Of a DNA stretch of 64,000 nucleotides, positions 3,026-27,452 are shown in pieces (position 1 is the stretch's first letter; the number at the start of each line of letters is the position of its first letter). This DNA is from Arthrobacter sp. ISL-30 (GTDB taxonomy: Bacteria > Actinomycetota > Actinomycetes > Actinomycetales > Micrococcaceae): the NCBI RefSeq assembly GCF_018613855.1, contig NZ_JAGGPK010000033.1:1-64000 (forward strand), read 5' to 3'. The translations under genes were made by a program, and so were the position numbers. The notes under the pieces were generated by a model, which saw only the letters and a program-made list of their open reading frames with translations, had not been told where the DNA came from and did not search any database.

Positions 3026-3713
3026 TCACGCATTGCGTGAGGGTTCCGGGCCTTCGACCCACGCACGGTCGTCAAGCGCGAGCGTTTTCCAGCCCACATA
3101 CGACAGTCCCAGGGCATAGGGCAGTGTGCCGATGACGCTGAATGCCAGCGTGGACGGCAGGATTATGGACGCGATGATGAATGCAGCTACGGCCACTGCC
3201 GGCACACCATGGGATAAAGCCGTTCCGCCAGAGCGCCAGCAGGAACAGTGGAAGTCCGAAGTAGACGCCGATGAGCCCCTGAATCTGCCATGCGGCCATA
3301 TTTACCGGCGTCGCCGACCCCTCGAGGATCCCGACGGCTTCGTCAATGGGCAGCCCGGATTGGCCCAGGGCAAGGGCGAACCAGTCGACCAGGAGCATCC
3401 CGCTCAGGTTGACCAGGCCGACAAATGCTAGCAGCCCCGCGGCTCGGCCCCAGATGACTGCCCGGTGGCGAACCATCGTCAGCAGTCCCAGCACTGAGAT
3501 CGACAGGAAGACCCAGCCGTAATGAAGGAACAGCGGCGCCACCTCGCCCTGAAGGGAATTGGCGCTGATCGTTTGGATGAAACTTGCAGATGTGTCTTCA
3601 GGCTCCCATGGTGTGAGAGCCATTCCGGCGAGCATACCCAAGGCGCCGACGAAGAGTCCTGCTGCCGTCGTTATGCGGCTGAACCGTGCTGTCTGAAGGA
3701 TCATCGTGACCAC
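3026..3713 (-). pseudogene. Integral membrane protein with one frameshift
   Basis: From ATG 3713 the frame encodes a multi-helix membrane protein of unknown function (GLFVGALGMLAGMAL, WVFLSISVLGLLTMV, GLLAFVGLVNLSGMLLV, IGVYFGLPLFLLALW). Near 3205-3215 the hydrophobic sequence moves to another frame, which gives VAVAAFIIASIILPSTLAF and LPYALGLSYVGWKTLALDD and stops at 3026. The restored protein would have about 228 residues and five or six helices. Both halves read well, so the lesion is recent or a sequencing error. Confidence 0.65.
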
Positions 3714-4257: not shown

Positions 4258-4806
4258 TCAGGCTGCAACATCGTGATGGTCAATCGTCATCTCTCTATCA
4301 TCCCGGTCCGCCTTCGTAGGAATCCACGGGAGCCCGGAACTGATCGTTTCCGCGCCAGTGCCGGCGGAGGGCGTCGAGTTCGACGACACTGCTTCATTCA
4401 GACTCTGGCACTGAGCCCACAGCTTTTTTTGCAGAAGAATGGTCTGGTCGATGTGAGCCAGGCCGGCGTCGTACTTCCTGAGGGTGTCGTAGGTCTTCCT
4501 CACCTCGCTGCGATCCTTGATCAGACCCCGCTCGACTGTGCTGCTAAGAATCCACGCCGTGTCGATGACCTTGATCCCGAATTTACTGGCGAACTTCTGG
4601 CCCCTGTGCTCGTCGATGACGACGTATACGTCCTCGCCCCGGTCTTTGCGCACCATGGCATGGGCGATGACCATGACTTCACCGAGATCTCGGCTCTGTA
4701 TGAGCCGTTCGGCAAGAGGAGTACCGGTGAGCTTTTTCACTGCAGCAGACAGCGCTTCAGCGTCTTCTGACGAAACCGACGAGTCGAAAAACTCCGATGC
4801 AGTCAT
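4258..4806 (-). CDS. PIN-domain-like protein
   Basis: The product has 182 residues. Residues 30-125 resemble the second half of PIN/DUF3368-type ribonucleases: a run like LGEVMVIAHAMV, then VYVVIDEHRGQKFASKFGI, then VIDTAWILSSTVERGLI. The acidic N-terminal strand expected of a full PIN domain is weak or missing, so the gene may be shortened at its 5' end. No clear ribosome site precedes ATG 4806 and no antitoxin gene is visible beside it. 4807-5133 holds no other gene. Toxin function is not shown. Confidence 0.45.
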   Translation of the reverse strand: MTASEFFDSSVSSEDAEALSAAVKKLTGTPLAERLIQSRDLGEVMVIAHAMVRKDRGEDVYVVIDEHRGQKFASKFGIKVIDTAWILSSTVERGLIKDRSEVRKTYDTLRKYDAGLAHIDQTILLQKKLWAQCQSLNEAVSSNSTPSAGTGAETISSGLPWIPTKADRDDREMTIDHHDVAA

Positions 4807-17082: not shown

Positions 17083-17409
17083 ATGGAAACTCTCACGCAT
17101 GCTCCTGTGCTGGCGAGGTTCGGCTATGCAGTGTCGGACCCGCCGAGGGCCAAGATCCTGCTGGCATTATCCGAATCGCCTGCTTACCCGTCCGACCTTG
17201 CCGATTCCCTGGGAGTGTCTCGGCAGAGCATGTCTAATCATCTGACGTGCCTTCGCGGGTGCGGCCTCGTGGTGGCCGTCCCCGACGGCCGACGTACCCG
17301 CTATGAGCTCGCGGACGCGAAGCTGGGCCATGCCGTCAGGGATTTCATCGATGTCGTTCTCGCCGTGGATCCCGCCTGCTGCGCCCCGGACGGGCAGTGC
17401 ATCGCATGA
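17083..17409 (+). CDS. cmtR: CmtR-like Cd(II)/Pb(II)-sensing ArsR-family repressor
   Basis: The product is a 108-residue winged-helix repressor. C56 and C60 (NHLTCLRGCGLV) lie in the recognition-helix region, and C99, C100 and C106 at the C-terminus. This is the ligand pattern of Mycobacterium CmtR, which binds Cd or Pb through Cys57, Cys61 and Cys102 and then leaves DNA. The stop overlaps the next start (ATGA), so sensor and efflux protein are made together. The inverted repeat upstream is a likely operator. The metal is inferred from the family. Confidence 0.8.
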   Translation: METLTHAPVLARFGYAVSDPPRAKILLALSESPAYPSDLADSLGVSRQSMSNHLTCLRGCGLVVAVPDGRRTRYELADAKLGHAVRDFIDVVLAVDPACCAPDGQCIA

Positions 17410-18314
17410 CGGCTCTACAGCTTGGAATTAACGCTGCACGACGGGCCGTCCTGAGCCGTCGGGTCCGGTTGTTCGCTGCCGCGACCATCACCTACAACGT
17501 CGTCGAAGCCATCGTGGCGCTCTGGGCCGGTGCAGTCGCCGATTCCTCAGCGCTGATCGGATTCGGACTGGACTCCGTGATTGAGGTTGCCTCCGCTGTG
17601 GCCTTGTCCTGGCAGTTCTCGGTCAAGGACCCCGAACGGCGCGAACACCTGACCTTGCGGATCATCGCCGTGTCCTTTTTCGCGCTGGCCGTGTTCGTCG
17701 CATTGGACGCCATCCGGTCCCTGACCGGCGGCCGTGAAGCCCAGCACTCGGGCGCCGGCATTGTCATCGCGGCGCTGAGCCTGGTGATCATGCCGATACT
17801 GTCCTGGCAGCAGCGACGCGCCGGGCGGGAGCTGGGATCCAGGACGGCCGTGGCTGATTCCAAGCAGACGCTCCTGTGCACTTACCTATCTGCTGTGCTG
17901 CTGGCCGGCCTGACCCTGAACAGCACGTTGGGTTGGCGGTGGGCCGATGCAGGGGCTGCGCTGGTAATCGCGGTTATTGCCGTCCGTGAGGGCATCAACG
18001 CGTGGCGCGGTGACGTGTGCTGCACCGTGCCCCATACGGGGCAGGCCTCGGAGCAGGCAGAAGCAGATGGGTGCGGTGCTGCCCACAACACCAGAATGGT
18101 TGCTTATCACGCGGAAACTGATGGTTGCTGTACCAGACCGGCATTGGTCGCCCCGGCAGCCGTGGAAGGAAGCGGCGGGGCGTCCGGAATTGTGCTCTTG
18201 GCGTTGGGTGGCACAAAGAAACCCGGTGTCGCCGCTGATGTTTGCTGCGATGGCTGTGGCGCGGACGCAGGGCGGCAGGCCGCCGGGCCCTGTCGCAGGA
18301 AAGAGCAGGCGTGA
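17406..18314 (+). CDS. Cation diffusion facilitator-like efflux protein with Cys-rich tail
   Basis: The product has 302 residues. The first 200 form a cation-efflux (CDF-like) membrane domain (TYNVVEAIVALWAGAVADSS, GFGLDSVIEVASAVALSWQ, ADSKQTLLCTYLSAVLL). The last 100 are cytosolic and unusual: paired cysteines recur (DVCCTV, DGCGA, DGCCTRP, DVCCDGCGAD, GPCRR), well beyond the usual CDF tail. The family exports divalent metals in exchange for protons. Coupling to the CmtR-like sensor suggests Cd, Pb or Zn. The tail may gather metal for export. ATG 17406 overlaps the sensor stop. Confidence 0.8.
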   Translation: MTALQLGINAARRAVLSRRVRLFAAATITYNVVEAIVALWAGAVADSSALIGFGLDSVIEVASAVALSWQFSVKDPERREHLTLRIIAVSFFALAVFVALDAIRSLTGGREAQHSGAGIVIAALSLVIMPILSWQQRRAGRELGSRTAVADSKQTLLCTYLSAVLLAGLTLNSTLGWRWADAGAALVIAVIAVREGINAWRGDVCCTVPHTGQASEQAEADGCGAAHNTRMVAYHAETDGCCTRPALVAPAAVEGSGGASGIVLLALGGTKKPGVAADVCCDGCGADAGRQAAGPCRRKEQA

Positions 18315-20467: not shown

Positions 20468-21014
20468 TGGGTGCCGGTGAGCGTGCTGCGCCGTTCAAGG
20501 AGCAGTGTGTCCTGCCAGTGCCCGGCGTTCGGGCCGTGGCCCATGCGGGCGATCTTCTCCCGGATGCCGACGACGCGGAACCCCAGCCGCTCGTGCAAGG
20601 AGAGGCTGGCGGTGTTTCGGGAAAGATGCTGGACTGGATGGTCCAGATCCCGCCGGCCTCGGTCGAGTCAATCAGCGCCCCGAGCAGGATGCGCCCCACG
20701 CCGCGTCCGCGGGCCTGGGGTGCGATGTAGATGGAGTGCTCCACGACGCCCCGGTACACCTCCCGGGCGGAAACGGGGGAAACCGCGGCCCAGCCCAGAA
20801 CCCGGGCCCGGTCGTCGGCGACGAGCCGGTGGCCGCAGAGCCGGCCGGCGTCAAAGGCCTCCCATGTTCGCGGTTCGCTTTCGAACGTCGCCTGCCCGGT
20901 GGCGATACCGGCAGCGTAGATGGAATGGACAGCCTCCCAGTCCGCGGCGCGCATCTGTCGGACAGCCACAGGGGTATCGGGTCCGGCTGCCCCTTGGAGG
21001 GCCGGGGTGGTCAC
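20464..21014 (-). pseudogene. arsN1: ArsN1-like GNAT acetyltransferase, frameshifted
   Basis: The product resembles phosphinothricin/ArsN-type N-acetyltransferases (VRQMRAADWEAVHSIYAAGI, GQATFESEPRTWEAFD, LGWAAVSPVSAREVYRGVVE, APQARGRGVGRILLGALI). ArsN1 enzymes acetylate and inactivate organoarsenical or glufosinate-like toxins. Near 20614 one base is missing from a run of A. Past it the other frame restores NTASLSLHERLGFRVVGIRE and stops at 20464. GTG 21014 overlaps the ArsR stop. A single-base sequencing error would make it functional. Confidence 0.75.
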
Positions 21015-21358
21015 AGGCCGGTGAGGAGCCCGGCGGTCCGCTCCAGCGCACCCGGGACCAGGGAATAGTAGGCCCAGGTGCCGCGCTTTTCGCGGTGCAG
21101 CAGACCGGCATCGACCAGGATCTTCAGATGGTGGGAGACGGTGGGCTGGCCAAGATCCAGCGGCGCCGTCAGGTCGCACACGCACGACTCGCCGGATTCA
21201 TCCGCCTTGACGATGGAGAGCAGCCGCAAACGGTTCGGATCGGACAGTGCCTTGAAGACGAGGGCTTTCTGCCTCGCATCCTCCTCGCTCAACCCGGCAG
21301 CCGAAGGTGCGCAGCAGGAGGCATCGGCCGCCGGTGCAGCTGTTTGCAGAGAGCTCAT
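21011..21358 (-). CDS. arsR: ArsR arsenite-responsive repressor
   Basis: The product is a 115-residue winged-helix repressor. C15 and C16 (ADASCCAPS) and the pair C59/C61 (ESCVCDL) match the As(III) site of Corynebacterium glutamicum ArsR, where Cys15, Cys16 and Cys55 bind arsenite. The recognition helix is QPTVSHHLKIL. I start at ATG 21358; an in-frame ATG at 21385 lies inside the palindromic operator and is less likely. It heads an operon with the GNAT and MFS genes. Confidence 0.85.
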   Translation of the reverse strand: MSSLQTAAPAADASCCAPSAAGLSEEDARQKALVFKALSDPNRLRLLSIVKADESGESCVCDLTAPLDLGQPTVSHHLKILVDAGLLHREKRGTWAYYSLVPGALERTAGLLTGL

Positions 21359-21375
21359 GTCCCCATTATGCCTCC

Positions 21376-21395
21376 ATATTGACATTCATCAATAT
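21376..21395. promoter_or_regulatory. ArsR operator, perfect palindrome ATATTGA-N6-TCAATAT
   Basis: Seven-base arms with a six-base spacer lie just before arsR, in front of its start codon. Related sites precede the plus-strand arsC gene (23319-23336 and 23355-23374). Similarity to known ArsR/SmtB operators and the position support autoregulation. Confidence 0.7.
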
Positions 21396-21421: not shown

Positions 21422-21829
21422 TCAAAGTTCGCTGGCCAGTTCCTGGACTGCGGCATCGATCTGGTTCCGCAGCGGCCGGATGCCCTCAATGTCCCAGCCA
21501 AGGGGATCGGGGAAGGACCAGCCCACGAGCCTTCCGGCGGGCGGGGCGGGGAGTTTGAGGCCGGGCTTCATTGTGACCACAACGTCCGCTTCACGCAGAT
21601 CCGCTTCGGTGACCCGCCGCGGGATGCGGCCGCTGATGTCGATGCCGAGTTCGCCCAGTGATGTGGCCACGGCTTCGCTGACGTGTTCGGACGGGTCGGT
21701 TCCCGCGGAGCGGACTTCGAACCGGTCTTTGGTCCGGTGTGCCATGAGGGCTGAGGCGAGCTGGGAGCGGCCCGCGTTGTGCTCGCATAGGAACAGGATG
21801 ACTTGTTTGCTCACAGGCCCGCCCGTCAT
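21422..21829 (-). CDS. arsC: Arsenate reductase, LMW-phosphatase type
   Basis: The product has 135 residues. The P-loop CEHNAGRS is C-x5-R-S, and a DP loop lies in WSFPDPLGWDIEG. It reduces arsenate to arsenite in the cytoplasm. It lacks the extra C-terminal cysteines of the thioredoxin-coupled type, so it may use mycothiol/mycoredoxin like Corynebacterium ArsC1/2; this is inference. ATG 21829 overlaps the aquaporin stop. Coupling reductase with channel recalls the AqpS-ArsC pair of Sinorhizobium. Confidence 0.85.
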   Translation of the reverse strand: MTGGPVSKQVILFLCEHNAGRSQLASALMAHRTKDRFEVRSAGTDPSEHVSEAVATSLGELGIDISGRIPRRVTEADLREADVVVTMKPGLKLPAPPAGRLVGWSFPDPLGWDIEGIRPLRNQIDAAVQELASEL

Positions 21830-22566
21830 GAGCCGGACTTCTCGGCGTTGTGGGGGATGACAACATCGTCGGCGGATTGGCCCACAGACGGGAACAGGAC
21901 AAGCAGCAGACCCATGCCGGCTGCCGCGCCGAGCAGCTGTGCGAGGACGAAGCCGGGAACGGAGCCAGGTGCGATGCCGGCGAAGGTGTCGCTGAACATG
22001 CGGCCGACCGTCACGGCCGGGTTCGCGAACGAGGTCGAGGACGTGAACCAGTAGGCGGCTCCGATATAGGCGCCGACAGCCGGGGCGGCGAGGACGCCGC
22101 GGGAGGTACGGGCCAGGGCGAAGATCAAAAGGATCAGCCCGGCGGTAGCGACGACCTCGCCGAGAAGATGCCCGCCGGTCACCCGCTCCTTGCTGGACAT
22201 GGAGGTTCCCACGTCGAACATGGCGTTCGCGAGCACGCTTCCGCTGACCGCACCGACGGTCTGGGCGGCCACGTAGGTGCCCAGCTCCGGCAGGGTCAGC
22301 CCCGCACCGCTGCGCCGGCCGAGGATCCAGTCTGCCAGTGAGACCACGGGGTTGAAGTGGGCGCCGCTGACCGGCCCGAGCATCAGAATCAGCACGGTCA
22401 GGCCGAACACGGTGGCGGTGCTGTTTTCGAGCAGCTGCAGGCCGACGTCGCCCGGGGAGAGCTGTTCGGCTGCGATCCCGGAGCCGACGACGATGGTCAC
22501 GAGAAGGCTGGTGCCGAGCAGTTCGGCGATGGCACGGCGCCACAGCGGCGGCTGGGAGAGATTCAT
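21826..22566 (-). CDS. aqpS: MIP-family aquaporin, likely arsenite channel
   Basis: The product is a 246-residue six-helix MIP channel. The two half-helix motifs are NPV (72-74, AHFNPVVS) and NPA (182-184, FANPAVTVGR). Sinorhizobium AqpS in an ars operon lets arsenite leave the cell down its gradient after ArsC reduction. The overlap with arsC and the absence of ArsB/Acr3 genes in this island suggest the same job here. It is transcribed away from the ArsR-ArsC fusion gene, with a shared 45-bp control region. The symbol is by analogy. Confidence 0.82.
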   Translation of the reverse strand: MNLSQPPLWRRAIAELLGTSLLVTIVVGSGIAAEQLSPGDVGLQLLENSTATVFGLTVLILMLGPVSGAHFNPVVSLADWILGRRSGAGLTLPELGTYVAAQTVGAVSGSVLANAMFDVGTSMSSKERVTGGHLLGEVVATAGLILLIFALARTSRGVLAAPAVGAYIGAAYWFTSSTSFANPAVTVGRMFSDTFAGIAPGSVPGFVLAQLLGAAAGMGLLLVLFPSVGQSADDVVIPHNAEKSGS

Positions 22567-22590: not shown

Positions 22591-22619
22591 ACCTCAGTCA
22601 AACTTGAGACAATGAGTAC
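22591..22619. promoter_or_regulatory. Divergent control region with nested inverted repeats
   Basis: TCAA-AC-TTGA (22598-22607) lies inside wider symmetric arms (AGTACCTCA and TGAGTACT) between the divergent aquaporin and ArsR-ArsC fusion genes. It differs from the ATTGA-N6-TCAAT sites, so it may belong to the fusion regulator. This is inferred from symmetry. Confidence 0.45.
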
Positions 22620-23283
22620 TGAGCGAATTGACCTCGGGATGCGCGTCGCCAAACATGCTGCCCTGGCCGACGCAGCGCGCTTGCGCATCGTAGACCTCCT
22701 GACTCTGGGGGACCTGTCCCCGACGGAGCTTCAGGCCGAGCTGGGAATGGCTTCGAACCTGCTCTCCCACCATCTGCGCACTCTGGAAGACGCGCAGCTG
22801 GTGACCCGGCACCGCTCGGAGGCGGACAGGCGCCGAAGCTACATCCGGCTCGCCGCCGGCGCCCTGGACGGGCTTGCCCCGGGGGCTGAATATGGCACTC
22901 GCCGCATTGTTTTCGTCTGCACCCGAAACAGCGCCCGGTCGCAGCTGGCTGCCGCGCTCTGGCAGCAGGTCAGCGAAATCCCCTCCGCCTCCGCGGGAAC
23001 ACATCCCGCAGACCGGATCGCCCGGGGCGCCATCGACGTCGCCAGCCGCCACGGCCTCAACCTGCCGGACGCGGCTCCGCGCCGCCTCGACCAGGTCCTG
23101 GGGGAAGGGGACTTCATCGTGACCGTGTGCGACAACGCCCACGAGGAACTGACAGGCCTCGGGGGCGTGCATTGGTCCGTCCCCGATCCCGTTCGGCTGG
23201 GAACCTCCGAGGCGTTCGAGCGCGCCTACGAGGATATCTCCCGCCGCATCGATGACTTCGTGCCGCGCCTTACCGCGGCCTGA
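22612..23283 (+). CDS. ArsR-ArsC fusion: HTH regulator joined to LMW phosphatase domain
   Basis: The product has 223 residues. Residues 1-90 form an ArsR-type winged helix (MRVAKHAALADAARLRIVDL, LGMASNLLSHHLRTLEDAQL). Residues 95-223 form a low-molecular-weight phosphatase/ArsC domain with P-loop CTRNSARS and the loop SVPDPVRLG. No clustered As(III)-binding cysteines are seen in the DNA-binding part. Such fusions occur in actinobacteria; whether they reduce arsenate, sense it, or both is not settled. It is transcribed divergently from the aquaporin. Confidence 0.85.
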   Translation: MSTERIDLGMRVAKHAALADAARLRIVDLLTLGDLSPTELQAELGMASNLLSHHLRTLEDAQLVTRHRSEADRRRSYIRLAAGALDGLAPGAEYGTRRIVFVCTRNSARSQLAAALWQQVSEIPSASAGTHPADRIARGAIDVASRHGLNLPDAAPRRLDQVLGEGDFIVTVCDNAHEELTGLGGVHWSVPDPVRLGTSEAFERAYEDISRRIDDFVPRLTAA

Positions 23284-23318: not shown

Positions 23319-23336
23319 CATTGACATCCATCAATG
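23319..23336. promoter_or_regulatory. ArsR-type operator CATTGA-N6-TCAATG
   Basis: The palindrome has perfect six-base arms and lies about 125 bases before the arsC start at 23460. The core ATTGAC-AT-CATCAAT is shared with the arsR operator at 21376-21395. Confidence 0.65.
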
Positions 23337-23354
23337 TTCGCGGTGATACTCCAT

Positions 23355-23459: not shown

Positions 23460-23882
23460 GTGAGTACCGAAACCGCCAAGAAGCCCTCCGTCCTGTTCGT
23501 CTGTGTCCACAACGCCGGCCGTTCCCAGATGGCCGCCGCGTTCCTGACCACCCTGGGCAAGGGCGAGATCGAGGTCCGCTCCGCGGGCTCCCAGCCCGCT
23601 GACAAGATCAACCCCGCAGCGGTCGAGGCCATGGCAGAGCTGGGCATCGACATGTCTGCCGAGGTCCCCAAGGTCCTCACCACCGAAGCCGTTAAGGAAT
23701 CCGACGTCGTGATCACCATGGGCTGCGGCGACGAATGCCCGTACTTCCCCGGCAAGCGCTACGAGGACTGGGTCCTGGAGGATCCCGCGGGCAAGGGCGT
23801 TCAGTCCGTCCGACCGATCCGCGACGAGATCAAGACCCGCATCCAGGACCTGATTGCCTCCCTGGCCCCCGCCGCCAAGTAA
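23460..23882 (+). CDS. arsC: Arsenate reductase, LMW-phosphatase type with extra Cys pair
   Basis: The product has 140 residues. The P-loop is CVHNAGRSQ and the second motif GCGDECPYFPGKRYEDW brings two more cysteines, as in reductases that pass the disulfide through a cysteine relay to thioredoxin or mycothiol systems. GTG 23460 follows AGGAG. The trxB gene comes 29 bases later, which fits thioredoxin-linked turnover. Two ArsR-type operators lie upstream. Confidence 0.9.
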   Translation: MSTETAKKPSVLFVCVHNAGRSQMAAAFLTTLGKGEIEVRSAGSQPADKINPAAVEAMAELGIDMSAEVPKVLTTEAVKESDVVITMGCGDECPYFPGKRYEDWVLEDPAGKGVQSVRPIRDEIKTRIQDLIASLAPAAK

Positions 23883-23911: not shown

Positions 23912-24925
23912 GTGAGCACCAAAGACAGCGCCCAGAGCCCCAAGGCAGTGAACGCCGAACAGCTGATCATCATCGGCTCCGGCCCCGCCGGCTACACCGC
24001 GGCGGTCTACGCCGCCCGGGCCGGCCTGAAACCGCTGGTGCTGGCCGGCTCGGTCACTGCCGGCGGCGCGCTGATGAACACCACCGAGGTGGAGAACTTC
24101 CCCGGTTTCCCGGGCGGCGTTCAGGGCCCGGAGCTGATGGACGGCCTGCAGCAGCAGGCCGAGAAGTTCGGCGCCCAGGTGGTGTTCGACGACGCCATCG
24201 AGGTCCAGCTGAAGGGTCACCTCAAGCGCGTTGTCACCGGCGGCGGCGAGACCTACGAGGCCCCGGCCGTCATTCTGGCCACCGGCTCCGCGTACAAGGA
24301 ACTCGGCCTGGCCGAGGAAAAGAAGTTCAGCGGCCACGGGGTCTCCTGGTGCGCCACCTGCGACGGGTTCTTCTTCCGCGACCAGGACATCATCGTGGTG
24401 GGCGGCGGTGATTCCGCGATGGAAGAAGCCACCTTCCTGACCAGGTTCGGCAAGACGGTGACCGTCGTCGTGCGCAAGGACGAGCTGCGCGCCTCCCGCA
24501 TCATGGCCCAGCGGGCCAAGGACAACCCGAAGATCAGCTTCGCCTGGAATTCTGCCGTCACGGCGATTCACGGCGATGGCAAGGTCAGCGGCGTCACCCT
24601 GACGGACACCCGCACCGGCGACACCCGGCAGCAGCCCGCCACCGGGCTGTTCGTGGCGATCGGGCACGTGCCGCGGACCGAGCTGGTGGCGGGGCAGGTG
24701 GAGCTGGACGCCGAGGGCTACATCAAGGTGGATTCGCCCACCACGTGCACCAACCTCTCCGGCGTGTTCGCGTGCGGGGACGCAGTGGACCACCGCTACC
24801 GCCAGGCCATCACCGCCGCCGGCACCGGCTGCGCTGCTGCCCTTGACGCCGAGCGCTACCTCGCAGCGTTAGAGGACGCGGACAGCATCGCTACGGCGCT
24901 GGTCGAGGAACCCACCCACGCCTGA
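23912..24925 (+). CDS. trxB: Thioredoxin reductase
   Basis: The product is a 337-residue FAD/NADPH flavoprotein. The FAD-binding motif IIGSGPAGYTAAVYAA is at the N-terminus, redox-active CATC occurs in SWCATCDGFFF, the NADPH motif is VVGGGDSAMEEA, and the C-terminal FAD motif is GVFACGDAVDH. It keeps thioredoxin reduced and so can drive the neighbouring arsenate reductase. The start is GTG 23912 behind CAGGAG. It is probably cotranscribed with arsC and the Cys-rich peptide gene downstream. Confidence 0.93.
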   Translation: MSTKDSAQSPKAVNAEQLIIIGSGPAGYTAAVYAARAGLKPLVLAGSVTAGGALMNTTEVENFPGFPGGVQGPELMDGLQQQAEKFGAQVVFDDAIEVQLKGHLKRVVTGGGETYEAPAVILATGSAYKELGLAEEKKFSGHGVSWCATCDGFFFRDQDIIVVGGGDSAMEEATFLTRFGKTVTVVVRKDELRASRIMAQRAKDNPKISFAWNSAVTAIHGDGKVSGVTLTDTRTGDTRQQPATGLFVAIGHVPRTELVAGQVELDAEGYIKVDSPTTCTNLSGVFACGDAVDHRYRQAITAAGTGCAAALDAERYLAALEDADSIATALVEEPTHA

Positions 24926-24954
24926 ATCCCTGAGCAGGGGAGGGGGTGAGCTGA

Positions 24955-25017
24955 ATGAACAGAGGATGCTGCGGCGACTCAGGCTGCTGCGACGAGGATC
25001 AGAACTGCTGCTGCTAG
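24955..25017 (+). CDS. 20-residue cysteine-rich peptide of arsenic operon
   Basis: An ATG at 24955, about ten bases after a strong GGGGAGGGGG ribosome site, opens a 20-codon frame that stops with TAG. The peptide has seven cysteines in three clusters (CC at 5-6, CC at 11-12, CCC at 18-20) with acidic residues between (CCDEDQN). It lies between trxB and the ArsO-like gene on the same strand. I know of no family for it. It could be an arsenite-binding microprotein or a Cys-codon leader for attenuation; the hairpin just downstream allows either. Confidence 0.55.
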   Translation: MNRGCCGDSGCCDEDQNCCC

Positions 25018-25032
25018 GCACCACCCCCGAGG

Positions 25033-25070
25033 CCTGCCGGCCCCGCTCCACCACGAACAGGGCCGGCAGG
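25033..25070 (+). promoter_or_regulatory. Strong hairpin after the Cys-rich peptide
   Basis: A perfect 11-bp stem (CCTGCCGGCCC at 25033-25043, GGGCCGGCAGG at 25060-25070) encloses a 16-base loop. No T-run follows, so it is not a classic terminator. It begins 16 bases after the peptide stop and ends 41 bases before the ArsO-like gene, a place where it could attenuate or stabilise the transcript. Confidence 0.6.
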
Positions 25071-25110
25071 CCCGGCCCCACACACCACTGACCGATAAGA
25101 GAGGAACACC

Positions 25111-26292
25111 ATGGATGGACAGACCAGCCTTCCCGTCGCCATCATCGGCGCCGGCCCCGTCGGGCTCGCCGCCGCCGCGCACCTGCTCGAACGCGGCCTG
25201 GAACCGCTCATCCTGGAAGCCGGCCCCACCGCCGGTGCGGCCATCGAACAATGGCGCCACATCCGCCTCTTCTCCCCGTGGCGATACAACCTCGACGCCG
25301 CCACCGTCCGCCTCCTCGAGGCCTCCGGCTGGGAAACACCGCGCCTGACTGCGCTGCCCTACGGCGGCGAGCTGGTCGACGACTACCTGGCACCGCTGGC
25401 AGCGCTGCCCGCGCTCAGCTGCCGGCTGCAGACCGGCGCCCGGGTCGTCTCCGTGACACGGCAGGGCATTGACAAGACCCACTCCCGCAACCGAGAGAAC
25501 ACCCCCTTCACCGTCCGCGTCCAAGACACCGATGGCGCCGTCCGGGAGATCACCGCAGCGGGGGTCATCGACGCCTCCGGCACTTGGTCCACACGCAACC
25601 CGCTGGGCACCTCCGGCCTCCCGGCCAAAGGTGAGAGTGCCGCCGACGGGCGGATCTCTTCACCGCTTCCCGACGTCCTTGGCCGGGACCGGGACTCCTT
25701 CGCCGGATGCCGCGTGCTCGTCGTCGGCGCCGGCCACTCCGCGGCCAACACCCTGATCAACCTCGCCGACCTGACCAAAGCCGAACCCGGCACCACCATC
25801 CTGTGGGCCATCCGGGGCGCCTCCGCCGCGAAGGTCTACGGCGGCGGCGACCTTGACGGGCTGCCCGCCCGCGGCCAGCTCGGCTCCCGGCTCCGCCGCC
25901 TCGTCGAAGCCGGCACTATCGAACTGCACACCGGATTCGGCATCAGCTCCTTCAAATCCCTCGACTCCCACGTCACCATCGAGGCCGTCGACGGCCGCAC
26001 CCTGGACGCGGACATCATCGTCCCCTGCACCGGGTTCCGGCCTGACCTGGACATCCTGCGCGAACTCCGGCTCGAACTGGACCCGGCCGTGGAAGCACCC
26101 CGGGAACTCGGCCCGAACCTCGGGCTCCCAGAGACCGGGGTGTGCTCCACCGACGCCGGCAGCAGCTGCGACGTCCCCGCCGCCGCCACCGCCAGCGCAG
26201 GCTCCGAAGCCGACGGGTGCTGCACAGTCCCGGAACCCGTGCTCATCGGATTCCAGACCGGCCTGGCTCACGGCCGCTCCGGCAACAACTGA
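25111..26292 (+). CDS. arsO: ArsO-like FAD/NAD(P) flavoprotein monooxygenase
   Basis: The product has 393 residues. FAD motif VAIIGAGPVGLAAAAHLLE is at the start, RHIRLFSPWRYNLD follows, and the NAD(P) motif VLVVGAGHSAANTLINL is near residue 200. This matches the flavin monooxygenases encoded in ars operons (ArsO), whose exact reaction is unclear. Members usually run on after RELGP with a conserved stretch before the LPETGVCS tail. Here RELGPN passes directly to LGLPETGVCST, so some 50-70 residues seem deleted in frame. The tail is Cys-rich (CSTD, SSCD, GCC). Confidence 0.75.
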   Translation: MDGQTSLPVAIIGAGPVGLAAAAHLLERGLEPLILEAGPTAGAAIEQWRHIRLFSPWRYNLDAATVRLLEASGWETPRLTALPYGGELVDDYLAPLAALPALSCRLQTGARVVSVTRQGIDKTHSRNRENTPFTVRVQDTDGAVREITAAGVIDASGTWSTRNPLGTSGLPAKGESAADGRISSPLPDVLGRDRDSFAGCRVLVVGAGHSAANTLINLADLTKAEPGTTILWAIRGASAAKVYGGGDLDGLPARGQLGSRLRRLVEAGTIELHTGFGISSFKSLDSHVTIEAVDGRTLDADIIVPCTGFRPDLDILRELRLELDPAVEAPRELGPNLGLPETGVCSTDAGSSCDVPAAATASAGSEADGCCTVPEPVLIGFQTGLAHGRSGNN

Positions 26293-26328: not shown

Positions 26329-27003
26329 ATGACTGAACAGCCCAACACGCTGGGCCTGAAGGACAACACCGTGCTCCTGCACCGGATCAGTGACCGCCTC
26401 GCTGAACGGTTCTCGGGCATCTTCACCGCCGAAACCGTCGAACGCTACGTCTTCGAGTCCTACACCGCCCTGGCCCGAACCGCGAAAATCAGCACCTACC
26501 TGCCGGCCACCACCGAACACTTCGCCAACGACCGCCTCAACGCCCTGGCCGAACCCAAAGGCGCCTTCGCCTCCGAGGTCCCCGAAGTGCTCTTCGTCTG
26601 CGTCCAGAACGCCGGCCGCTCCCAGATGGCCGCGGCCCTGCTGAAGGTCGAAGCCAAAGGCCGCATCAGGGTCCGGTCCGCGGGATCCCTGCCAGCTGCA
26701 GAACTGGACCCCGCGGTGGTGACGGCCATGGCCGAAAAGGGGCTGGATCTCTCCAGGGATTACCCGAAACCCCTCACCGACGATGTCGTGCGCGCCTCTG
26801 ACATCGTGATCACCATGGGCTGCGGCGACTCCTGCCCGATCTACCCCGGCAAACGCTACGAAGACTGGGACCTTACCGACACGGCCAACCAGTCCCTGGA
26901 CACCGTCAGGGACGTCCGCGACAAAATCCACGACCGCGTTAAGGCGCTGGTCGCCTCGCTGTTGAGAAACTCCGACCTGCGCAAGGGAGAAGCCCCCTCA
27001 TGA
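26329..27003 (+). CDS. arsC: Arsenate reductase with N-terminal helical domain
   Basis: The product has 224 residues. The first 85 form a helical domain (HRISDRLAERFSGIFTAETV, ERYVFESYTALAR) known from longer actinobacterial ArsC proteins, where it serves dimerisation. The rest is an LMW-phosphatase ArsC with P-loop CVQNAGRSQ and GCGDSCPIYPGKRYEDW. The stop overlaps the start of the next arsC-like gene (ATGA). It resembles Corynebacterium ArsC1-prime, which works with thioredoxin. Confidence 0.88.
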   Translation: MTEQPNTLGLKDNTVLLHRISDRLAERFSGIFTAETVERYVFESYTALARTAKISTYLPATTEHFANDRLNALAEPKGAFASEVPEVLFVCVQNAGRSQMAAALLKVEAKGRIRVRSAGSLPAAELDPAVVTAMAEKGLDLSRDYPKPLTDDVVRASDIVITMGCGDSCPIYPGKRYEDWDLTDTANQSLDTVRDVRDKIHDRVKALVASLLRNSDLRKGEAPS

Positions 27004-27452
27004 CCGATTCCGCAACCGCGACGTCCGAAACCGGAAAGAAGCCGGCAGTCCTGTTCGTCTGCAGCAAGAACGGCGGCAAGTCCCAGCTCGCCGCAGGCCT
27101 CATGCGGCAACTGGCGGCCGGCAGCGTCGACGTGTACTCCGCCGGCACCAGACCCGGCAAAGACCTCAACCCCCTCGCCGTCGAATCCCTCACCGAACTC
27201 GGCATCGACGTCGGCGGGGAACACCCCAAACCCGTTAGCGACGAGGTCATCGACGCCGTTGACGTCGTAGTCGTGCTCGGAACCGAAGCCAGGCTCGACC
27301 CGCGCGAAGACACCAGGTTCGAACTCTGGGAAACCGACGAACCCTCAGAACGCGGCATCGAAGGCATGGAACGCATGCGGCTCGTCCGCGACGACATCAA
27401 AAACCGCGTCCAACAGCTCTACGCCACCCTCACCGGCACGCATGGGGCATAG
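27000..27452 (+). CDS. LMW-phosphatase-like ArsC homologue with Lys in the P-loop
   Basis: The product has 150 residues. The P-loop reads CSKNGGKSQ, so the invariant arginine of C-x5-R is a lysine. The last part (ARLDPREDTRFELWETDEPS, IEGMERMRLVRDDIKNRV) has an acidic DP-loop region but no extra cysteines. It may be a subgroup with altered or lost arsenate reduction, perhaps a partner or regulator of the preceding enzyme, to which it is coupled by overlap. Confidence 0.8.
   Translation: MTDSATATSETGKKPAVLFVCSKNGGKSQLAAGLMRQLAAGSVDVYSAGTRPGKDLNPLAVESLTELGIDVGGEHPKPVSDEVIDAVDVVVVLGTEARLDPREDTRFELWETDEPSERGIEGMERMRLVRDDIKNRVQQLYATLTGTHGA

Follow-up and report, generated by a model that had tools for sequence, protein, structure and literature searches.

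A seventeen- to thirty-one-residue cysteine-pair peptide encoded among arsenic resistance genes of Arthrobacter and its relatives, a candidate carrier of arsenite

Described arsenic-binding proteins and cysteine-codon leaders

ArsD, an As(III) metallochaperone serving the ArsA pump, is a protein of about 120-130 residues with a folded domain, and the bacterial metallothioneins SmtA and MymT are small, cysteine-dense proteins with CxC and CxxC motifs that hold metal ions in thiolate clusters. Vicinal cysteine pairs characterize ArsD in the accessible text of PMC2440759, and a free model peptide of AfArsR with cysteines at positions 2, 3 and 9 is stated, in the accessible part of PMC11212059, to bind As(III) with a logK of 6.35 at pH 7.5 and Hg(II) far more tightly than As(III). 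Polycysteine attenuators have been reported in M. smegmatis, and the mycobacterial ones are described as leaderless (Canestrari 2020, as cited in the excerpted review PMC9031893). The ars1 operon of Bacillus sp. CDB3 contains a hairpin between arsC and arsD that is described, in the portion of PMC4562236 at hand, as a read-through terminator that lowers downstream expression.

A 64,000-nucleotide stretch of Arthrobacter sp. ISL-30, analysed here as a whole and called the window, encodes a very short cysteine-rich peptide that shares features with each of these systems. As in ArsD (PF06953), its vicinal cysteine pairs lie within an ars operon, and its cysteine spacings resemble those of an ArsD from this genus (L066; PF06953, 8e-36), which has CC-x4-C near the N-terminus and the tail GGCCGGSTGCC; unlike ArsD, the peptide is only 17-31 residues long and lacks the folded domain. 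Of 204 genomes of the genus, 13 encode ArsD, with the peptide alongside in no fewer than two (G235, G238); ArsD is too scarce for the peptide to be judged as its replacement. The peptide is small and cysteine-dense like SmtA and MymT, with constrained cysteines, loose spacers and a number of cysteine units that changes by duplication, but it is about half their length or less, is built of CC pairs, is very acidic and belongs to an ars operon. By analogy it is most likely comparable to a minimal ArsD tail or to a metallothionein.

The polycysteine attenuators, as far as the excerpted review describes them, are likewise short cysteine-codon-rich reading frames upstream of a gene in an actinobacterium, whereas the peptide has a strong, conserved Shine-Dalgarno (SD) site in place of a leaderless start, follows trxB, arsC or an aquaporin gene (aqp) within ars loci, is selected for acidity and is kept where its usual downstream gene is absent. 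The CDB3 hairpin resembles the one found here in lying inside an ars operon; it differs in the U-rich stretch after its stem, the present locus having a GC stem without a U-tract, and the available portion of that paper mentions no peptide.

The interpretation that fits best among those weighed below is thiol binding. On the sequence evidence it is rather probable that cells do make this micropeptide, that selection maintains it in the ars operon, and that it catches As(III) made by ArsC on its vicinal cysteines and buffers it or passes it on.

The reading frame and its surroundings in the window

The window carries the following features around the peptide:

21011-21385, minus strand: arsR, ArsR/SmtB regulator (above the NF033788 cut-off)
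21826-22566, minus strand: aquaporin/aquaglyceroporin (MIP, PF00230), candidate As(III) channel
22612-23283, plus strand: ArsR-ArsC fusion protein (HTH_5 and LMWPc domain matches)
23321-23350, plus strand: sigma-70-like promoter match TTGACA-18-GATACT (consensus match only)
23463-23882, plus strand: arsC1, arsenate reductase (below NCBIfam cut-offs; relatives annotated ArsC; predicted start)
23912-24925, plus strand: trxB, thioredoxin-disulfide reductase (TIGR01292, above cut-off; arsT-like position)
24939-24949, plus strand: very strong SD site, GGAGGGGGTGA (-18.8 kcal/mol; family-wide identity)
24955-25017, plus strand: 20-residue cysteine peptide, MNRGCCGDSGCCDEDQNCCC, and stop (translation, conservation and coding test)
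25031-25072, plus strand: 13-bp hairpin of type T1 between peptide stop and arsO (folding, typing and covariation)
25111-26292, plus strand: arsO-like FAD/NAD(P) oxidoreductase (below the NF040505 cut-off)
26329-27003, plus strand: arsC2, with an N-terminal phosphatase-like helical domain
27000-27452, plus strand: arsC3, ArsC-like (below NCBIfam cut-offs)

The plus strand thus reads arsR-arsC fusion, arsC, trxB, peptide, arsO, arsC, arsC, and the opposite strand holds arsR, the aquaporin gene and another arsC-like frame. The promoter match is a candidate to drive arsC-trxB-peptide-arsO. Elsewhere in the genome a single SBF-family (PF01758) carrier was found. A cation-efflux family protein encoded at 17397-18314 ends in a cysteine-rich tail with several CC clusters.

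An earlier note, made from the letters of this DNA, had described a 20-residue peptide with seven cysteines grouped CC, CC and CCC behind a strong ribosome site, and both points are borne out. Translation of 24955-25017 gives exactly this grouping, and its CC-x4-CC places a third cysteine a few residues from a vicinal pair, as in ArsD. The 20 nt 5' of the ATG pair at -18.8 kcal/mol with the anti-SD sequence, a value reached by no other of the 1643 ATGs on both strands of the whole window, and the family median is likewise -18.8 kcal/mol (68 members) as against -8.1 for arsO (196 loci, best start chosen). Matches to Pfam at E up to 1, the ArsD domain PF06953 included, and to NCBIfam were absent for the window peptide, very short queries being hard to score in both.

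The gene that follows is ArsO-like only remotely, at 63.4 bits against an NF040505 cut-off of 425; its product has a tail with C..C..CC. Compared with the protein of a relative, L002, it lacks 67 residues, in frame at about residue 335, and the gap corresponds to the stretch around HSCGTV and KSYGRAPTFLLATGYEQVRS. The window's flavoprotein may be impaired while the peptide is intact.

Conservation, neighbours and distribution of the family

The peptide occurs in 72 distinct DNA versions (copies merged by DNA, a fused copy, L015/L207, standing outside them), all in one genus, the named copies being from Arthrobacter, Pseudarthrobacter and Paenarthrobacter. Because these versions share the same layout, the window peptide is confirmed as a real feature, beyond chance. 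The members have 17-31 residues and 5-10 cysteines, as small and cysteine-rich as would be asked of a metallothionein; three CC pairs are present in 64, two in six, and four (L241) and five (L167) in one each, by duplication of CC units. CC followed directly by the stop ends 71 of the 72, spacers between pairs are 3-6 residues long in 124 of 141 cases, and the net charge is -3 or lower in every member. The earlier note had staked the peptide on its cysteine pattern being kept in homologous spacers, and it is kept in the 72 versions. The usual end is CC and 53 of the 72 members have six cysteines; the CCC at the end of the window peptide is unusual.

The SD site and reading frame form a conserved island (0.73-0.91 mean pairwise DNA identity against 0.30-0.41 around it, 72 members). 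Upstream, identity is 0.34 at -60 to -31 and 0.35 at -30 to -21; it is 0.73 in the SD region (-20 to -1), 0.81 in codons 1-6 and 0.91 over the last three codons and stop, and it drops to 0.41 and then 0.30 in the two 20-nt blocks after the stop.

Synonymous and nonsynonymous changes, the comparison proposed in the earlier note, put the frame under coding constraint. They were counted by parsimony on an arsO tree of 58 tips, ten of the first 68 members being dropped for want of a near-full arsO; such counts on one gene tree are approximate because the loci may recombine. The late additions L241-L244 stand outside this test and outside the hairpin typing, SD, 5'-arm pairing and acidic-residue analyses. 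With Met set aside, the columns together show 60 synonymous and 80 nonsynonymous changes (140 in all), where the neutral synonymous share would be 0.242 (p 9e-7), and the bias is weaker when the stop column is left out (41 and 80 of 121, against 0.238; p 0.008). The stop codon itself changed 19 times, each time to another stop, and among the 72 members 32 use TGA, 29 TAA and 11 TAG. The six cysteine columns changed only 12 times in all, six synonymously and six nonsynonymously, which makes for a weak test (p 0.02) because synonymous changes are few there as well. Three conserved non-cysteine columns gave p 0.014 and five variable columns behaved neutrally (20 synonymous, 58 nonsynonymous; p 0.54); arsO itself, with 3001 synonymous and 1424 nonsynonymous changes, is more strongly biased than the peptide. 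Replacements of Asp or Glu at three columns stayed acidic in 10 of 20 cases against 17% expected (p 6e-4), while at the Asp column of the last spacer none of six did. By the codon and acidic tests, what is preserved is the cysteine pairs, the stop and acidity in general, and not the particular residues of the spacers. The Gly4 codon is GGA in 46 of the 58 members, whereas Gly10 is mostly GGC or GGT. A chance frame or degenerate coding remnant, which shortness and a patchy distribution might suggest, has next to no probability and is ruled out by the conserved island, the stop-codon switching and codon test, the SD strength and the acidic constraint.

The immediate neighbours are trxB and arsO in 40 of the 72, arsC1 and arsO in 24, and aqp and arsO in one; arsO is missing from the pairs aqp/arsC (two) and arsC1/arsC3 remnant (two), and three members have trxB upstream and no query gene within 300 nt downstream. 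Thus 43 copies lie directly 3' of trxB and 29 directly 3' of arsC or aqp, and arsO is downstream of 65 but not within the stretch examined in seven. The placement between trxB and an ArsO-like gene given in the earlier note is correct for the window (trxB stop at 24925, arsO start at 25111) and for the 40 copies, but fails as a family rule; the 29 copies without adjoining trxB and the seven without arsO indicate that the peptide belongs to the whole ars operon rather than to the trxB-arsO spacer. In L141 and L150 arsO has been lost (a fragment is left in L150) with the peptide intact, and L197 and L230 have the order arsR-aqp-peptide-arsC-trxB. L050 retains the SD site and ATG with the rest of the peptide gone.

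These neighbourhoods bear on two alternatives. A thiol peptide that mainly serves something other than arsenic, such as a TrxB-ArsC redox relay or a buffer for Hg, Cd, Cu or Zn, would suit the 43 copies behind trxB, the lack of specificity of CC thiols and the strong preference of the AfArsR model peptide for Hg(II) (PMC11212059, in its accessible part). Against it, every member read lies among ars genes apart from L203, in which a contig edge leaves trxB alone visible, and arsC or aqp rather than trxB is directly upstream in 29 of 72, so that this alternative appears unlikely. The 65 copies directly before a flavoprotein gene could also suggest a RiPP-like precursor modified by the adjoining enzyme, as could one natural in-frame fusion to it in Pseudarthrobacter sp. 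HLT1-5 (L015/L207), in which the stop has become a sense codon and the peptide continues through 30 residues into ArsO. However, a single lost stop codon was enough to create that fusion, which may be neutral, and seven of the 72 copies have no adjoining flavoprotein gene; a RiPP-like role is thus very improbable. An exchange of CC between peptide and ArsO tail was likewise considered and rejected, one CC being present in 56 of the 61 ArsO tails that accompany the peptide and in 44 of the 46 that do not, which gives no link.

ArsO-like matches at E<=0.001, some of them weak, are present in 162 of 199 related genomes. An ORF scan places the peptide just 5' of arsO in 42 of 130 arsO loci and finds it missing from 88 (22 of the 130 are from other genera, and L015 has the fused copy), which makes the peptide dispensable. 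Mapped on the ArsO tree, presence of the peptide takes 21 changes as compared with 47 for shuffled labels, the L118 row being mislabelled as a peptide locus. A profile of 24 peptides matched 61 of 206 genomes of the genus at E<=1; 55 of these are genuine by tally, lying among ars genes or (G073) behind trxB at a contig edge, and the ORF scan added 11 genomes missed by the profile, whose sensitivity is to that extent incomplete. This brings the genomes with the peptide to 66 or more of 206. When named genomes were scanned with a pattern that demanded a GGTGA SD site, 56 stretches came up; 39 carry the peptide, every one titled Arthrobacter, Pseudarthrobacter or Paenarthrobacter, and near the remaining 17 there is none of nine query proteins.

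Outside the genus no homologue was found, either with the one pattern in the named genomes or with the short profile, of limited sensitivity, in samples of 395 genomes of the family (own genus included), 396 of the order and 396 of the phylum. The best profile matches outside the genus were weak (E 0.18, 0.02 and 0.03, respectively) and were judged to be chance, having none of the nine query proteins in their ~3-kb stretches; three viral-contig matches were also judged to be chance.

Two annotated plasmid records carry the peptide without a CDS for it, the PLSDB gene tables being incomplete. Plasmid pTC2 of Paenarthrobacter aurescens TC1 carries MDTGCCTDTGCCDEDDLDCC. In a plasmid record of the same strain (CP000476.1; L238, 3255-3317) the annotated arsO CDS begins at 3266 and overlaps the peptide in a different frame, although similarity to the window ArsO starts only at 3407. 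A search by title or abstract start, with subscription journals mostly outside it, found no publication reporting the peptide. It would thus be a widespread ars component, unannotated in the records read, in a much-studied resistance system, and it suggests that a systematic search for cysteine-dense reading frames of fewer than 25 codons in metal operons is warranted.

The downstream hairpin and the candidate roles of the peptide

After the stop most of the 68 members typed have one of two elements: T1, a GC hairpin with the core CTGCCGG/CCGGCAG, or T2, a palindrome of greater length. Automatic typing assigned 37 to T1, 16 to T2 and 15 to neither; by eye ten of the 15 have a related inverted repeat and five have none (L011, L012, L016, L029, L139). 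T2, CCCAACTAGGTAGC...GCTACCTAGTTGGG, occurs in many of the spacers; of two closely similar loci one can have it and the other lack it (L002 vs L012; L156 vs L016), and it is probably a small mobile element. Among 32 T1 sequences 88% of the stem cells are paired and both sides have changed in 4 of 11 pairs; the covariation score was matched by none of 500 shuffles, and 32 of the 500 had at least as many double-change pairs. The T1 core is nearly invariant, so that it could also be a shared sequence element. In the window the hairpin lacks a U-tract and was not called by a terminator scan, and the 200-nt stretch as a whole folds unexceptionally (z -1.63; 11 of 200 shuffles fold as well). T1 is a possible partial terminator or mRNA stabilizer.

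The hairpin raises the alternative that the frame is a cysteine-codon leader, on which a ribosome slowed by short or arsenic-bound cysteine would change the hairpin or downstream expression; the earlier note had also offered sensing of cysteine or thiol supply by the Cys codons. The precedent of the M. smegmatis attenuators (as excerpted from PMC9031893) and the frequent, covarying stem speak for a leader, and few columns vary less than the Cys codons, at synonymous sites too, which would allow for a function of the RNA or of the codons themselves. However, the frame is led by an SD site behind other ars genes, seven of 72 copies have no arsO downstream (two of them lying between aqp and arsC), and the hairpin is swapped for an unrelated mobile palindrome or is absent by eye in five of 68. 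Antiterminator pairing was not found: pairing of the coding sequence with the 5' arm, the only alternative pairing tried, did not exceed that of random synonymous recodings (mean z +0.43 over 44 members chosen with a wider T1 pattern, 19 of which reach or exceed the mean). Moreover, acidity is selected overall and CC units duplicate along with their spacers. Sensing of cysteine or thiol supply is accordingly disfavoured by the losses of arsO, the hairpin exchange, the unexceptional 5'-arm pairing and the acidity, and a leader is a rather unlikely explanation.

The earlier note had put forward As(III) buffering or transfer by the peptide, and this is the idea that fits best. Its conservation, coding constraint, ars setting and SD strength are seen in the sequences; from them we infer its translation, abundance, binding, buffering, handover and relation to the hairpin as follows. 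The near-ideal ribosome site would probably yield large amounts of peptide, and the hairpin after the stop may raise this output relative to the downstream genes. As(III) from the ArsC reductases would be caught by the vicinal cysteines, each CC being able to supply three thiols together with a cysteine from the following pair, usually at a distance of 3-6 residues; As(III) binding is suggested because a CC with a nearby third cysteine is the chemistry of AfArsR and ArsD. The acidic, glycine-containing spacers would keep the peptide soluble and unfolded, and TrxB may hold its thiols reduced. The peptide would thereby buffer As(III) and may, more speculatively, pass it to the arsO-like flavoprotein or to an exit such as the aquaporin; the PF01758 carrier, like the aquaporin, could let arsenite out. 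Such thiols would take up Hg, Cd, Zn or Cu as well.

More tentatively, and short of what we would expect, the peptide could be a gene-encoded, ribosomally made bacterial counterpart of phytochelatin, an unfolded As(III) carrier of 17-31 residues, sized by duplication of CC units, that takes arsenite from ArsC to the exit channel or flavoprotein, and that would have been overlooked because gene finders skip frames this short. If so, it would rank with the smallest metalloid chaperones. As a model of how an unfolded peptide may handle a metalloid, the family is simple and open to test, and its natural variants with two to five CC pairs make a ready series.

Cysteine-pair sequences were also seen elsewhere. 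A locus from another family of the order (L118) encodes a 63-residue protein with three CC pairs and a CCG end before arsO and divergent from arsR; strong matches to it occur in two of 13 genomes of its family, and it looks like an independent stand-alone CC protein. A relative of it in L256 is accompanied by arsR but by no arsO in the short stretch examined. In Thermocrispum agreste (L219, ~4460-4535) MTCACCDGCCDCGAECGCC stands behind AGGAGGTGA right after a MerR-family gene and is a candidate for another metal micropeptide; it was kept out of the codon test, hairpin typing, SD, 5'-arm pairing and census of 72. The ArsO tails listed from other genera each contain at least one CC, and that of L103 has three ACCGTPEPA-like repeats.
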